Both the position numbers and the translations under genes were made by a program. Of a stretch of 64,000 nucleotides of DNA, positions 55,667-60,608 are shown in pieces. Under the pieces are notes generated by a model. That model made no database searches. It was not told the DNA's origin and saw only the letters and a list, made by a program, of their open reading frames with translations. Within the stretch, counting starts at the first letter, position 1; each line of letters begins with the position of its first letter. Source of the stretch: an uncultured Chryseobacterium sp. (GTDB taxonomy: Bacteria; Bacteroidota; Bacteroidia; Flavobacteriales; Weeksellaceae); assembly GCA_913775525.1 (NCBI GenBank), contig CAJYLH010000037.1:62001-126000 (forward strand), read 5' to 3'.

Positions 55667-55924
55667 TCCTCATATGCTTACATCAGTTTTATATTACTGA
55701 ACCTAATTTAAATTAGTGATCATTGAAAACAAAACGGACTGTAATGGAAAAGCAGGCTTATCGCAGACGATTATCTTTTTGTTTATCAATCACCAGTTCA
55801 AAATATATTATCTTCCCTGCAGTAGTGGGATGAAAACAAAATCTGCTGAAGCTTTAAAACGATTTTGCTTTAAATCTGAAGTTCGGATTCGGGAACAATA
55901 AAAAAATAGATGTCCATTTTTCGG
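55667..55924 (+). other. spacer with no recognised gene
   Basis: Between the peroxidase gene and the promoter at 55925. It contains a 61-codon open frame (55716-55901) without family features or a promoter, which I do not regard as coding. No repeat or terminator was recognised. Confidence 0.5.
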
Positions 55925-56735: not shown

Positions 56736-57779
56736 ATGGAGCTCACGGAAAAAATAATGTATGAGGCTTCTTATACCAAAGACGTTTCATTTGAAGGAAT
56801 ATTCTGGATGGGGGTCAAAACCACGGGAATATTCTGTAGACCTACCTGCACAGCAAGGAAGCCAAAATTTGAAAATGTAGAGTTTTTTTTCAATACCAAA
56901 GAGGCAATGCTAAAAGGGTATCGCCCGTGTAAAGTGTGCCGACCTTTGGAAAACCTTGATGCAACAACGCAGTATATCAAAGAATTGCTTAAAGAAATTA
57001 CGGATGACCCAACACTGAAGCTTAAAAATTATGATCTTGTACAAAGAGGCCTGGAACCGGCTACCGTCCGCAGATGGTTTTTGAAACACCATGGAATCAC
57101 GTTTCATGCTTTCCAGAGGATGTCAAAACTCAATACGGCTTTCAAAAAGCTTCGTCAGGGAGAATCCGTTACAGAAGTAGCCTTTGATATGGGATATGAT
57201 AGCCTGAGCGGTTTTAACGAGGGGTTTAAAAATATTTTTGGGGTATCTCCTAAAAATACTCCCATGGAAAAGGTCATTGACCTTAAGAGAATAGAAACCA
57301 TGCTGGGAACCATGATCGCCTGCGCCGATGAGCACGGAATCTGCCTTCTGGAGTTTTCAGACAGGAAAGCGCTTCCCACAGAGCTGAAAAGTATTGCAGA
57401 ATATTTTAAGGCGAATATTATCCAGGGAGAAAATCCTCACTTTATCACTCTGGAAGAAGAACTGAAAGAGTATTTCGAAGGAAGGAGAACCCAGTTCTCC
57501 GTTCCGCTTTCTCCCGTAGGAACCGATTTCCAGAAAGAGGTATGGACGGTTCTGCAGGAAATTCCTTACGGAACAACAAGGACGTACCAAGAACAGGCCA
57601 ATATTCTGGGAAATCGCAAATCTGTACGGGCCGTAGCCAATGCCAACGGACTGAATAAAATATCCATTATCATACCCTGTCACCGCGTAATCGGGAGTAA
57701 CGGACATTTAACCGGTTATGGAGGAGGAATCTGGAGGAAACAAAAGCTGCTGGAACTGGAAAAGGCTATTTTATTCTAG
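56736..57779 (+). CDS. ada: bifunctional Ada: DNA methyltransferase repair and AraC-type activator
   Basis: 347 residues, close to E. coli Ada (354). Order: N-terminal zinc-Cys4 domain (about 1-75) with FCRPTC (Cys34, Cys38) and CKVC (Cys65, Cys68), where Cys34 is the predicted methyl phosphotriester acceptor; AraC-type HTH (about 80-175; VTEVAFDMGYDSLSGFNEGFKNIFG); and the C-terminal O6-methylguanine transferase with the acceptor Cys315 in IIPCHRVIG. It removes methyl groups from DNA and, once methylated, can switch on adaptive-response genes. Co-transcribed with the PEP mutase-like gene 2 bp upstream. Confidence 0.95.
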   Translation: MELTEKIMYEASYTKDVSFEGIFWMGVKTTGIFCRPTCTARKPKFENVEFFFNTKEAMLKGYRPCKVCRPLENLDATTQYIKELLKEITDDPTLKLKNYDLVQRGLEPATVRRWFLKHHGITFHAFQRMSKLNTAFKKLRQGESVTEVAFDMGYDSLSGFNEGFKNIFGVSPKNTPMEKVIDLKRIETMLGTMIACADEHGICLLEFSDRKALPTELKSIAEYFKANIIQGENPHFITLEEELKEYFEGRRTQFSVPLSPVGTDFQKEVWTVLQEIPYGTTRTYQEQANILGNRKSVRAVANANGLNKISIIIPCHRVIGSNGHLTGYGGGIWRKQKLLELEKAILF

Positions 57780-57824
57780 AACTAAGTAAATTAAAAATTT
57801 TTGCTTTAAATAGATATGTTACTA

Positions 57825-57914
57825 CCGTTGGTGTGTGCATCTTGTCCGTACCATTTTAAGAATTAATATTTAAGTGTTGTAAGAAAGAACGAGCTTTGAA
57901 ACTCGCGCCAACGG
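57825..57914. repeat. short inverted repeat near the 3' end of the GIY-YIG gene
   Basis: A 7-bp inverted pair, ccgttgg at 57825-57831 and ccaacgg at 57908-57914, frames 76 bp between ada and the GIY-YIG stop. Short enough to be chance; noted because the gene's other side carries the large repeat array. Confidence 0.3.
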
Positions 57915-57926
57915 AGAGAGCATGGA

Positions 57927-58220
57927 TCATCTTTTAAAACTTTTTTTCGCCAGATTCGGTAAATCTTCAAACCGCCCTTCTATAAGTGCAGTCTTTTTCG
58001 CCTGTGACCATTTTTTAATTTTCTTTTCAAATAGAATGGCCTGACTGATATCGGTAAAAGCACAGTAGTAAACCAGTTGTAGAGGTCTTCTTGTAGAGGT
58101 ATATGAGCCGAAGTATTTTCCGTCCTGGTGTTCATCAAACCGTTTATAAACATTTTCTGTAACGCCTGTATAATAGGTATTATCTGAACACAGCAATATA
58201 TAAACAAAGGAAGTTTGCAT
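57927..58220 (-). CDS. stand-alone GIY-YIG nuclease domain protein
   Basis: 97 residues, single domain. Catalytic layout of GIY-YIG nucleases (UvrC-N type) is present: Tyr7 in FVYILL, YYTG (17-19 region) for the YIG part, Arg27 (YKRFDEH), His31 and Glu65 (ILFEKKIKKW). Small proteins of this type (UPF0213/YhbQ-like) have unclear biological roles; some cleave branched or flapped DNA in vitro. The gene reads away from the repeat array, whose edge is about 100 bp upstream of its start. No clear promoter element was found. Confidence 0.88.
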   Translation of the reverse strand: MQTSFVYILLCSDNTYYTGVTENVYKRFDEHQDGKYFGSYTSTRRPLQLVYYCAFTDISQAILFEKKIKKWSQAKKTALIEGRFEDLPNLAKKSFKR

Positions 58221-58318
58221 TGCATAAAAATAGCGAATATCTTGATGGGATTATACTATTGGCATGTGTTTAAATACATTTATATATGCTTTAAACAATT
58301 ACAATTAGAAAAATATTT

Positions 58319-59115
58319 TTCCGTCCGTTCAAGTACGAAAAGAAATGGAGTGTATCGAGAACTTGTTGAAAAGGATCACACTTTTGTTTGTTAATCACCG
58401 GTTCTCGATACATTTTTCTCCGCGTTGCTGCGAAAAAAACTCGAACTGACGGGGCCGCAGTGTTTGTCAGGGATAGATTTCCGTTGTTGTCTGTTCTAGT
58501 ATGCAACGAAGTGGAGTGTATCGAGAACTTGTTCAAAAGGATTATGTTTTGTCTGCAATTCACTGGTTCTCGATACATTTTTCTCCGCGTTGCTGCAAAA
58601 AAAACTCGAACTGACGGTGCCGCAGTGTTTGTCAGGGATCTATTTCCGTCGTCGTCAGTTCGAGTGCGCAACGAAGTGGAGCGTATCGAGAACTTGTTGA
58701 AAAGGATCACACTTTTGTTTGTCAATCACCGGTTCTCGATACATTTTTCTCCGCTTTGCTGCGAAAAACACTCGAACTGACGGGGCCGCAGTGTCTGTCA
58801 GGGATAGATTTCCGCAGCCGTCAGTTCGAGTACGCAACGAAGTGGAGCGTATCGAGAACTTGTTGAAAAGGATCACACTTTTGTTTGTCAATCACCGGTT
58901 CTCGATACATTTTTCTCCGCGATGCTGCGAAAAAAACTCGAACTGACGGGGCCGCAGTGTTTGTCAGGGATAGATTTCCGCAGCCGTCAGTTCGAGTGCG
59001 CAACGCAGTGGAGTGTATCGAGAACTTGTTGAAAAGAAGTGCTGATCTGCCTGTTACACACCGGTTCTGGATACATTTTTCTCCGCTTTGCTGAGAAAAC
59101 ACTCAAACGGACGGA
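58319..59115. repeat. array of ~166-bp repeats, each with two inverted repeats
   Basis: Units begin with tatcgagaacttgtt at 58353, 58519, 58684, 58850 and 59016 (spacing 166, 165, 166, 166; the last is partial). Each holds IR-A, tatcgagaac...gttctcgata (58353-58362/58401-58410 in unit 1, 38-nt loop), and IR-B, actcgaactgacgg...ccgtcagttcgagt (14-bp perfect at 58770-58783/58818-58831). Loops diverge in units 2 and 5 while IR-A arms stay intact (one mismatch in unit 5); units 3 and 4 are nearly identical. The outer edges carry a diverged IR-B form (ccgtccgttcaagt at 58321; actcaaacggacgg at 59101). GC content is above the surroundings. No unique spacers, so not CRISPR. Confidence 0.92.
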
Positions 59116-59159
59116 GCAGAAATTATTATTATATGATTGATTTATCGACTGTTCATAAC

Positions 59160-59186
59160 AAAAAAAGCCCGGAAAATCCGGGCTTT
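59160..59186 (-). terminator. lpdA terminator
   Basis: Ten-bp perfect arms (59164-59173 and 59177-59186) with an aaa loop; on the minus strand the run of A at 59160-59166 becomes the T-run after the hairpin. Confidence 0.88.
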
Positions 59187-59219
59187 ACTATATTAAATGA
59201 TTAATAATGATATTAGTCC

Positions 59220-60608
59220 TTAGATATGGATCACCTCACCGTAAGCAGCAGCGGCAGCTTCCATAATCGCTTCGGAAACGGTCGGGTGCGGGTGGATAGA
59301 CTTGATGATCTCATGGCCTGTGGTCTCCAGTTTCCTGGCTACTACAGCTTCTGCAACCATATCGGTAACACCGTCACCGATCATGTGGCAACCTAACCAC
59401 TCTCCGTATTTGGCATCGAAAATTACTTTGATGAAACCGTCGGTATTTCCATTGGCTGTTGCTTTTCCGCTGGCAGAAAGAGGGAACTTCCCTACTTTGA
59501 TTTCATACCCTTTTTCTTTAGCCTGCTTTTCAGTAAGGCCTACGGAAGCTACTTCCGGATGGCAATATGTACATCCTGGGATGTTGCCGTAGTCGATTTT
59601 TTCTACGTGCATTCCCTTGATCTTTTCCACACAGGTGATTCCTTCTGCGGAAGCAACGTGTGCCAGGGCCTGGGTAGGGATGATATCCCCGATCGCATAA
59701 TATCCCGGTACGGAAGTTTCATACCATTCGTTGACCAGTACCCTTCCTTTGTCTGTCTGGATGCCCACTTCTTCAAGGCCAATATTCTCGATGTTCGCAG
59801 CAATTCCTACCGCAGACAATAAGATATCCGCTTCCAGAGTGATGTTGCCTTTAGCTGTTTTCACAGTCGCCTTCACTCCTTCTCCGCTTGTATCCACACT
59901 TTCTACAGATGCATTGGTCATGATCTCAATTCCGGTCTTCTTAAGGGACTTCTCTAAATGTTTAGAGATTTCCTCATCTTCCACAGGAACGATGTTCGGC
60001 ATGAATTCAACCACAGTTACTTTAGTCCCCATCGTGTTATAGAAATCGGCAAACTCAACTCCGATAGCTCCGGAACCTACTACGATCATAGATTTCGGTT
60101 GTTCAGGTAAAGACAATGCCTGTCGGTATCCGATTACTTTTTTACCGTCCTGAGGCAGGTTCGGTAATTCTCTGGAACGGGCTCCCGTAGCGATGATGAT
60201 ATGGGTACCGGTATATTCCGTTACTTTACCTTCCTGATCGGTTACAGAAACTTTTTTGCCCTTCTGAACTTTCGCTGTTCCCAGAATGACATCGATTTTA
60301 TTTTTTTTCATCAGGAATTCAATCCCTTTGCTCATTTTGTTCGCTACACCACGGCTTCTCTGAATAACATTCGGGAATTCAAAGCTTCCTTCTACTTTAT
60401 TCAGTCCGTAATCTTCAGCATGGTTGATATAATGAAATACCTGAGCCGATTTCAGCAAAGCTTTAGTAGGAATACATCCCCAGTTCAGGCAGATCCCTCC
60501 AAGGTTTTCTTTTTCGATGATCGCAGTCTTGAAACCCAGCTGTGCCGCTCTGATTGCTGTAACGTATCCACCAGGACCACTTCCGATGACAATAATATCG
60601 TAGTTCAT
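59220..60608 (-). CDS. lpdA: dihydrolipoyl dehydrogenase
   Basis: 462 residues from the ATG at 60608; the open frame extends 39 codons upstream to 60725 but the family begins at MNYDIIVIGSGPGGYV, so the extension is rejected. It is the FAD E3 subunit that reoxidises dihydrolipoyl groups in pyruvate and 2-oxoglutarate dehydrogenases and the glycine cleavage system. Seen: FAD loop GSGPGG, redox disulfide Cys40/Cys45 in GGICLNWGCIPTK, NAD loop VVGSGAIGVEFADF, and the active-site HPHPTVSEA. Stand-alone here, with no E1/E2 genes adjacent. Confidence 0.96.
   Translation of the reverse strand: MNYDIIVIGSGPGGYVTAIRAAQLGFKTAIIEKENLGGICLNWGCIPTKALLKSAQVFHYINHAEDYGLNKVEGSFEFPNVIQRSRGVANKMSKGIEFLMKKNKIDVILGTAKVQKGKKVSVTDQEGKVTEYTGTHIIIATGARSRELPNLPQDGKKVIGYRQALSLPEQPKSMIVVGSGAIGVEFADFYNTMGTKVTVVEFMPNIVPVEDEEISKHLEKSLKKTGIEIMTNASVESVDTSGEGVKATVKTAKGNITLEADILLSAVGIAANIENIGLEEVGIQTDKGRVLVNEWYETSVPGYYAIGDIIPTQALAHVASAEGITCVEKIKGMHVEKIDYGNIPGCTYCHPEVASVGLTEKQAKEKGYEIKVGKFPLSASGKATANGNTDGFIKVIFDAKYGEWLGCHMIGDGVTDMVAEAVVARKLETTGHEIIKSIHPHPTVSEAIMEAAAAAYGEVIHI

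Follow-up and report, generated by a model that had tools for sequence, protein, structure and literature searches.

The 64,000-nucleotide window from an uncultured Chryseobacterium sp. that we analyzed carries a compact tandem array of inverted repeats, which raises the question of the family to which these repeats belong and of the enzyme, if any, that spreads or maintains them. The original prediction saw REP/BIME logic here, and this comparison holds: the hairpins are tagged, inverted, and alternating, and the family is extragenic, dispersed, and variable in copy number. It was unable to place the array in a family and missed the key neighbor, a GIY-YIG nuclease gene. In our reading, the array is probably a BIME-like tandem cluster of REP dimers, with the adjoining GIY-YIG protein as the dedicated partner nuclease of the repeat class; that this protein cuts or copies the repeats we infer.

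Tandem Repeats Finder places the array at 58321-59114 with a period of 166 and a score of 1180, as one of the two arrays that it reports across the window at the default score. Positions 58321-59115 comprise five complete 132-bp imperfect palindromes and four spacers of 33-34 nt (Table 1). The units are spaced at 165, 166, and 166 bp, in agreement with the five units at 165-166 bp described at the outset, but the last unit is complete rather than partial. Both inverted repeats reported earlier are present, IR-A (tgtatcgagaac/gttctcgataca) with arms 37-38 nt apart and IR-B (actcgaactgacgg/ccgtcagttcgagt) with arms 34-36 nt apart, and units 3 and 4 are almost identical, as had been noticed. Each 132-bp element is an inverted pair of CGTC-tagged, REP-like hairpins that starts near CCGTC and ends near GACGG, the diverged edges being the exception. 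Its outer arms are ~14 nt long and its inner arms ~12 nt, each side having a shorter self-complementary stretch between the two arms, and the loop is ~38 nt. A half-element reads CGTC, a 5-nt arm, GAG, an inner hairpin, TCGA, and the complementary arm; in the window, the halves measure 41-51 nt, and each combines an outer arm of 4-5 bp with an internal loop and an additional inner hairpin. Along the array, plus halves alternate with minus halves. All eight matches of a strict tag-plus-hairpin pattern in the 64-kb window lie within the array and start with CGTC, one of the four tags that the pattern permits. We regard the 132-bp element as the natural unit because two other genomes of the genus contain it as solitary copies that extend from CGTC to GACG. 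The diverged form said to be common to the two outer edges is found over 15 nt (87% complementary), and the symmetric frame that it was taken to form consists of the left arm of element 1 and the right arm of element 5. Open reading frames run through the array on both strands and are taken as by-products of the repeat. None of the Rfam matches listed over 57600-59800 reaches its gathering score, and neither a CRISPR nor a described RNA family is recognized there; the sub-threshold matches were judged to be chance.

Table 1. Features of the array and its surroundings in the window (forward-strand positions, 1 to 64,000)
Feature	Position	Strand	Description
G087 extra block of elements, other side of the GIY-YIG gene	57800..57834		Absent in the window; from alignment of L052 with L193
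Stand-alone GIY-YIG nuclease gene	57927..58220	-	97 aa, UPF0213 type; Pfam PF01541, 62.7 bits
Element 1	58321..58452		Inverted pair of CGTC-tagged hairpins (132 bp) with a diverged outer left arm
Spacer 1	58453..58485		33 nt
Element 2	58486..58617		Left half degenerate
Spacer 2	58618..58651		34 nt
Element 3	58652..58783		96.2% identity to element 4
Spacer 3	58784..58817		34 nt
Element 4	58818..58949		Halves 58819-58859 (plus) and 58898-58948 (minus) both fit the tagged-hairpin pattern
Spacer 4	58950..58983		34 nt
Element 5	58984..59115		Complete; right half degenerate

The idea that arms stay intact while loops drift holds in part. In the array itself, divergence affects the outer arms at the two array edges and, in element 2, the outer left arm; one inner arm of element 5 contains a mismatch. 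We compared 51 complete copies, 16 from one genome and 35 from another. Their major-base frequency averages 0.954 and 0.987 for the left and right inner arms, 0.836 and 0.948 for the left and right outer arms, 0.851 for the loop, and 0.835 and 0.945 for the left and right in-between parts. Arms no better kept than loops had been named beforehand as evidence against a conserved paired structure. This describes the outer left arm (0.836 vs 0.851); the other three arms are better kept than the loop. Two-sided changes are nearly absent among the 51 copies (two outer and one inner), and a search for covariation within the window family found none. Between families, the arms differ in their letters and are nonetheless complementary: in a search that did not require complementarity, the 4-nt arms pair perfectly in 42% of 274 distinct halves, compared with a mean of 6.6% and a maximum of 11.7% when the arms, of which there are 19 different ones among these halves, are dealt out anew. 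Single-stranded DNA folding gives z scores of -1.94, -4.80, -6.85, -5.16, and -2.27 for elements 1-5, and the elements are predicted to fold more than expected by chance. For the better copies, the predicted single-strand structure is either a long hairpin or a cruciform with four arms, the CGTC tags lying at the outer ends. Over 186 distinct halves, folding of the inner parts was better than that of shuffles, with a mean z of -2.83; 59% fall below -2, and some do not fold at all.

The window family is not confined to this locus. The genome from which the window derives (G000; 4.11 Mb in 45 contigs) carries it at further loci on contigs C12, C23 (three places), C24, C25, and C36. The notion that the array could be unique to its locus, put forward at the outset as a possible refutation, fails because related copies exist at these loci and in other genomes of the genus. 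The arrays fetched from G000 sit outside reading frames of at least 150 codons, and dimers occur in the loci read; the family is dispersed, mostly extragenic, and frequently dimeric. At the same loci in G000 and a complete relative, G087, unit number is 4 vs 3 (C25) and 3 vs 6 (C24), so that array length differs between the two species compared. The array can also be present or absent at a conserved gene pair: the flanks of the C25 array are ~850 nt apart in G000 and 58-80 nt apart, without a repeat, in 5 of 28 other genomes read at this locus, and these five empty gene pairs contain no pattern match. The extra block of elements that G087 carries near window position 57833 may be a new insertion there or, equally, reflect a loss in the window genome. 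The window array, a remnant on C12, and one C23 array join flanks from separate G087 loci (L052, L043, and L048 vs L193, L196, and L197), which makes the arrays joints of rearrangement, unless the draft is misassembled at these points. Contigs C23 and C36 start within such repeats.

The near identity of elements 3 and 4 and the differing unit numbers in the two species are what would be expected of a passive satellite, in which an old palindrome was duplicated in tandem by chance with no partner enzyme involved. As a full explanation this is refuted, and we consider it extremely improbable; tandem duplication leaves unexplained the dispersed copies, the association with one gene family across phyla, and the match between repeat type and nuclease clade described below. 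It stands as the way in which arrays grow. Two further arrays on C36 (L049, 2196-3278 and 8632-9738) belong to a related subfamily with CGTCACTTCGAG arms and spacers longer than those of the window array. About 5 kb separates the two, a stretch with several genes, one of which is HNH-like by eye only. Within the window, 55735-55830 holds a degenerate element remnant between two genes, a place where G087 keeps about two elements.

The partner that we propose is encoded next to the array, the start codon of its gene lying 100 bp away. The GIY-YIG domain is the only one recognized in the 97 residues, and the PDB relatives of the protein (1zg2/1ywl) are UPF0213 proteins. In an alignment of relatives, Y7, Y17, G19, R27, H31, E65, and K69 are each found in 105-109 of the 110 rows. 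The protein thus has the domain with the catalytic Tyr, Arg, and Glu of the UPF0213/YhbQ family, features that it shares with YhbQ of Escherichia coli, YazA of Bacillus subtilis, and eukaryotic SLX1. SLX1, a structure-specific endonuclease, is by profile the nearest solved enzyme of known activity (E 8e-4). The nuclease domain also occurs in the GIY-YIG homing endonucleases (I-TevI and kin), whose genes are carried by an element that they may mobilize. The window gene differs in standing free among other genes, between hairpin repeats and with no sign of an intron or intein, and the NCBIfam group I intron endonuclease model scores 15 bits on its product against a cut-off of 56. A second PF01541 match in G000 lies in a 600-codon open frame, and among the array loci found in this genome, only that of the window has a GIY-YIG gene adjoining.

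We examined the flanks of related GIY-YIG genes for tagged repeats. The relatives were the best 80 of 212 in other genomes; 78 of these 80 loci include at least 150 nt of sequence on each side of the gene. Repeats were scored either by a tag, an arm, GAG or AAG, an inner part, CGA, and the complementary arm or, alternatively, by a tag with a stem of at least 7 and a loop of 3-6; the pattern was written after the flanks of part of the first two locus sets had been read. A 400-nt search to each side of the gene finds tagged repeats in both directions at 63 of the 78 loci and in at least one direction at 77, compared with 24 and 454 of 9,392 shifted anchors at the same loci, which overlap one another and are not independent. 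The one exception among these 78 Bacteroidota loci, L076, has the core motif on both sides all the same. A motif-free count agrees: in 64 of the 80 loci, more 11-mers are common to the two 400-nt flanks than in any shifted control from that locus, and at least 10 are shared in 60 of 80 loci vs 23 of 2,663 controls. The remaining 16 loci, two of them at contig edges, are not above their own controls. When a different gene served as the control in 28 genomes of the genus (L279-L306), a set that leaves out L277 and L278, where that gene adjoins an array, the pattern was found in none. Around the nuclease gene, the genus loci have repeats on both sides in 24 of 30 cases and on at least one side in all 30; this set includes the locus of the window, and some of its species may also be in the first set. 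Most of the nearer relatives have GTATCGAG, or the complement of this motif, close by the gene, with only sporadic occurrences farther out in 5 kb; in more distant relatives, the flanking repeat is a different one built on the same logic, TGTC-AGGTC-GAGCGCAGTCGA-GACC. Tags at the related loci are CGTC, TGTC, or CCTC, and the repeats lie a median of 51 and 39 nt from the gene (n=78). In Flavobacterium (L077 and L082), the gene is inside one element, between its left and right halves. Repeats occur on both sides in 78 of a set of 109 loci. In 45 of these 78, the tags nearest the gene face outward, with the gene enclosed by an inverted pair, and the other orientations account for 33 (14, 12, and 7). 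The association of gene and repeats is a direct observation.

The closest described repeats are those of the CGTC-tagged REP superfamily, which have a CGTC (or TGTC, CCTC) tag at one end of the palindrome, are often dimeric, and are known from five phyla, with Bacteroidetes among the hosts (Di Nocera, De Gregorio, Rocco 2013, PMC3733652). The families measure 20-40 bp, with a stem of 8-9 bp that begins with A-T, a loop of 4-5 nt, and a short tail, mostly CCA. The window elements share the tag at one palindrome end, and they differ in their 41-51 nt halves, their second, inner hairpin, the lack of a CCA tail, and the presence of tandem 132-bp dimers with a candidate partner nuclease. Since the window lacks the published short single stem, we class its repeats as a long relative that appears to work alike, not as a proven member. 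Short single-stem CGTC repeats are found beside the GIY-YIG genes of Azospirillum, Sinorhizobium, Shinella, Rhizobium, and Neisseria. The same paper lists Azospirillum lipoferum and Sinorhizobium meliloti as carriers of CGTC repeats and equates the CGTC-1 repeats of the Neisseriae with dRS3; the repeats that we find beside GIY-YIG genes in these organisms are of the CGTC class. Its authors conclude that CGTC repeats apparently have no dedicated transposase and that their mobile form may have vanished early.

Architecture of this kind, with dimers and alternating arrays, could also result from a RAYT transposase (HUH, Y1) encoded elsewhere that spreads classical REPs or REPINs, the GIY-YIG gene being incidental. 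The window array shares with BIMEs (PMC2817692) regularly spaced hairpins of alternating orientation, and differs in its sequence class and partner enzyme. With REPIN/RAYT systems, or REPtrons, it shares inverted hairpin doublets and an enzyme gene near its own repeats, with types matched to enzyme clades, but the tag described there is GTAG, not CGTC, and the enzyme is an HUH tyrosine transposase, not a GIY-YIG protein (Bertels and Rainey 2011, PMC3116915). G000 does have two Y1_Tnp genes; neither has a matching repeat nearby, by nhmmer (L050, L051) or by pattern (L039, L040), so that the defining feature of a REPtron, a Y1 HUH gene flanked by cognate repeats, is absent from this genome. We rejected the RAYT link on these grounds. 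GIY-YIG enzymes and HUH tyrosine transposases differ in chemistry and fold, and 63 of 78 GIY-YIG loci have the repeats on both sides of the gene. The paper that defined the CGTC class likewise found no tyrosine transposase gene flanked by CGTC repeats (PMC3733652). This strongly weakened explanation now seems to us very unlikely.

The association of GIY-YIG genes with tagged repeats extends beyond Bacteroidota. In a first set of plasmid and chromid loci, 19 of 53 hit records picked for variety, the pattern finds repeats on both sides at nine, inspection by eye adds a tenth (L220), and nine have none. Among the positive loci are A. lipoferum 4B, with CGTC-ATCCCCGC-GAAG-GCGGGGAT-CCAG, S. meliloti, and the cyanobacterium Planktothrix. 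The nine without tagged repeats include one E. coli YhbQ locus, one B. subtilis YazA locus, and three from Cupriavidus; YhbQ and YazA, examined at one locus each, differ from the window protein in this respect. With the pattern frozen, 10 of 10 further loci were positive, 6 of them on both sides; these were the only loci fetched after the pattern was fixed, chosen from 42 hit records for organism variety, and several come from a record or genus already present in the first set. The query for these ten was a Rhizobium protein that is itself repeat-flanked, so what they test is its clade rather than GIY-YIG genes in general. They include Neisseria gonorrhoeae, with CGTCATTCCCGC...GCGGGAAT (dRS3). 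In Planktothrix (L232, 1501-1785), a GIY-YIG gene with TGTCATTCTGAG repeats lies between the genes for an MmeI-like enzyme and, as annotated, drmA of a DISARM system.

When repeat type was mapped on a tree of 110 proteins, 9 changes sufficed compared with a mean of 52.4 after shuffling, and none of 200 shuffles was as low; the tree has few columns and long branches, shared ancestry remains in the test, and rows L124 and L126, labeled by compound repeats, are possibly mislabeled. Eight of the eleven rows labeled repeat-less form one supported group, and YhbQ and YazA fall in the repeat-less group. As judged from these sequences, repeat type follows nuclease clade. These data bear on the idea that the GIY-YIG gene is a passenger or regulated neighbor, with the repeats controlling its transcript (as terminator, attenuator, or nuclease target) or with the gene captured once between two repeats, and that its product has an ordinary repair role like that of YhbQ. 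The short distance between repeat and gene fits such a role. So does the stability of gene context within lineages, as nine Chryseobacterium loci share one common chromosomal context, which indicates that movement of the gene is rare. The tracking of nuclease clade by repeat type and the grouping of the eight repeat-less relatives argue against it, as does the fact that the repeat family adjoining the gene is also dispersed away from it.

The joint presence or absence of gene and repeats at the conserved sufB-sufC pair argues further against a passenger. In A. lipoferum 4B (L221, 1354-1972), a GIY-YIG gene with repeats on both sides splits sufB from sufC; in the 96% identical Azospirillum ramasamyi, the two genes are 91 nt apart, with neither gene nor repeats between them. 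Ten more listed Azospirillum records have a similarly shortened sufB-sufC span according to the listing. Shinella sp. PSBB067 (L241, ~1450-1880) has a GIY-YIG gene and inverted CGTC repeats of its own in the same gap, and the listing for four Sinorhizobium records gives a span ~430 nt shorter. As the genes and CGTC repeats of A. lipoferum 4B and Shinella sp. PSBB067 differ, they apparently represent independent arrivals at one site. Taken together, we judge the passenger explanation unlikely. At the junctions read (the window near 57833 vs G087, A. lipoferum vs A. ramasamyi, and C25 vs the five empty gene pairs), no clear target-site duplication was found.

Copy number in the genus correlates with the nuclease. 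Across 148 genus genomes, the median number of copies of the motif GTATCGAGAA is 34 for the 23 that encode a close nuclease (at least 78% identity) vs 4 for the 125 others (Mann-Whitney p 5e-11, in a test that ignores kinship of the genomes); the reversed motif, as a control, gives 5 and 8. There are counter-examples: 17 of the 125 hold at least 15 copies, and 3 of the 23 hold fewer. More distant GIY-YIG matches occur in 92 of the 125, bringing the genomes with any match to 115 of 148, so the 125 are not nuclease-free. This comparison speaks to the converse proposal that the nuclease restrains the repeats, cleaving extruded cruciforms as SbcCD does for palindromes and residing beside them as a selfish or addictive pair. 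Kinship to the structure-specific SLX1, the four-armed fold of the element, and the differing unit numbers at the same loci would suit such a role. Restraint predicts fewer copies with the gene, and the genus comparison gives more. We consider this proposal improbable, with the reservation that cleavage can serve spread or restraint and that sequence separates the two poorly.

Returning to the partner nuclease, we envisage the following route. The enzyme would recognize its cognate hairpin or cruciform during replication or extrusion and cut at or near the CGTC tag, after which host repair would copy or re-insert the element. A repeat pair, with or without a gene between its halves, would then behave as a miniature mobile element, and arrays would lengthen and shorten through slippage or recombination (unequal exchange) between tandem units. 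GIY-YIG enzymes hydrolyze DNA and are not known to rejoin it, so re-insertion would need host enzymes, a difference from RAYTs. In more general terms, we lean toward a second, independently evolved REP-mobilizing system in which UPF0213-type GIY-YIG proteins are dedicated CGTC-REP enzymes in Bacteroidota, alpha-, beta-, and gammaproteobacteria, and cyanobacteria, acting on hairpins or cruciforms without HUH chemistry; YhbQ and YazA would be repeat-less relatives, possibly domesticated.

The open literature, which excludes most subscription papers and all bioRxiv preprints, yielded no link between GIY-YIG proteins and bacterial REPs. There, the only paper found to mention both GIY-YIG and extragenic sequences is, going by its title, a Moraxella carriage study; searches for GIY-YIG with miniature inverted repeats returned nothing on bacterial REPs by title, YhbQ together with GIY-YIG was not found, and the letters of the window repeat brought up no title on bacterial repeats among the matches listed. 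A Bacteroidetes RAYT subclass with atypical flanking structures appears in a 2018 survey of HUH enzymes, whose text does not mention GIY (PMC6006769); a 2021 TnpAREP paper mentions neither CGTC nor GIY (PMC8266576). Our data suggest the GIY-YIG nuclease as the best candidate for the missing partner that spreads or maintains CGTC repeats. If this is correct, the question of the missing transposase can be tested with one small protein and one hairpin oligonucleotide. UPF0213 proteins would gain a biological role, a REP system would be based on an enzyme unrelated to RAYTs, and the occurrence of arrays at rearrangement joints and assembly breaks would be easier to explain.

Larger composite repeats were seen in another genome, G114 (L202, L204, L206, L209, and L247-L259), in which many dispersed REP dimers lie within ~180-bp MITE-like repeats with the ends CCCGTTGTGCATTTTG...CAAAATGCACAACGGG. 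The pattern is weaker in G059 (L211, L214), and one MITE-like copy (L263) has the same ends with another filling.
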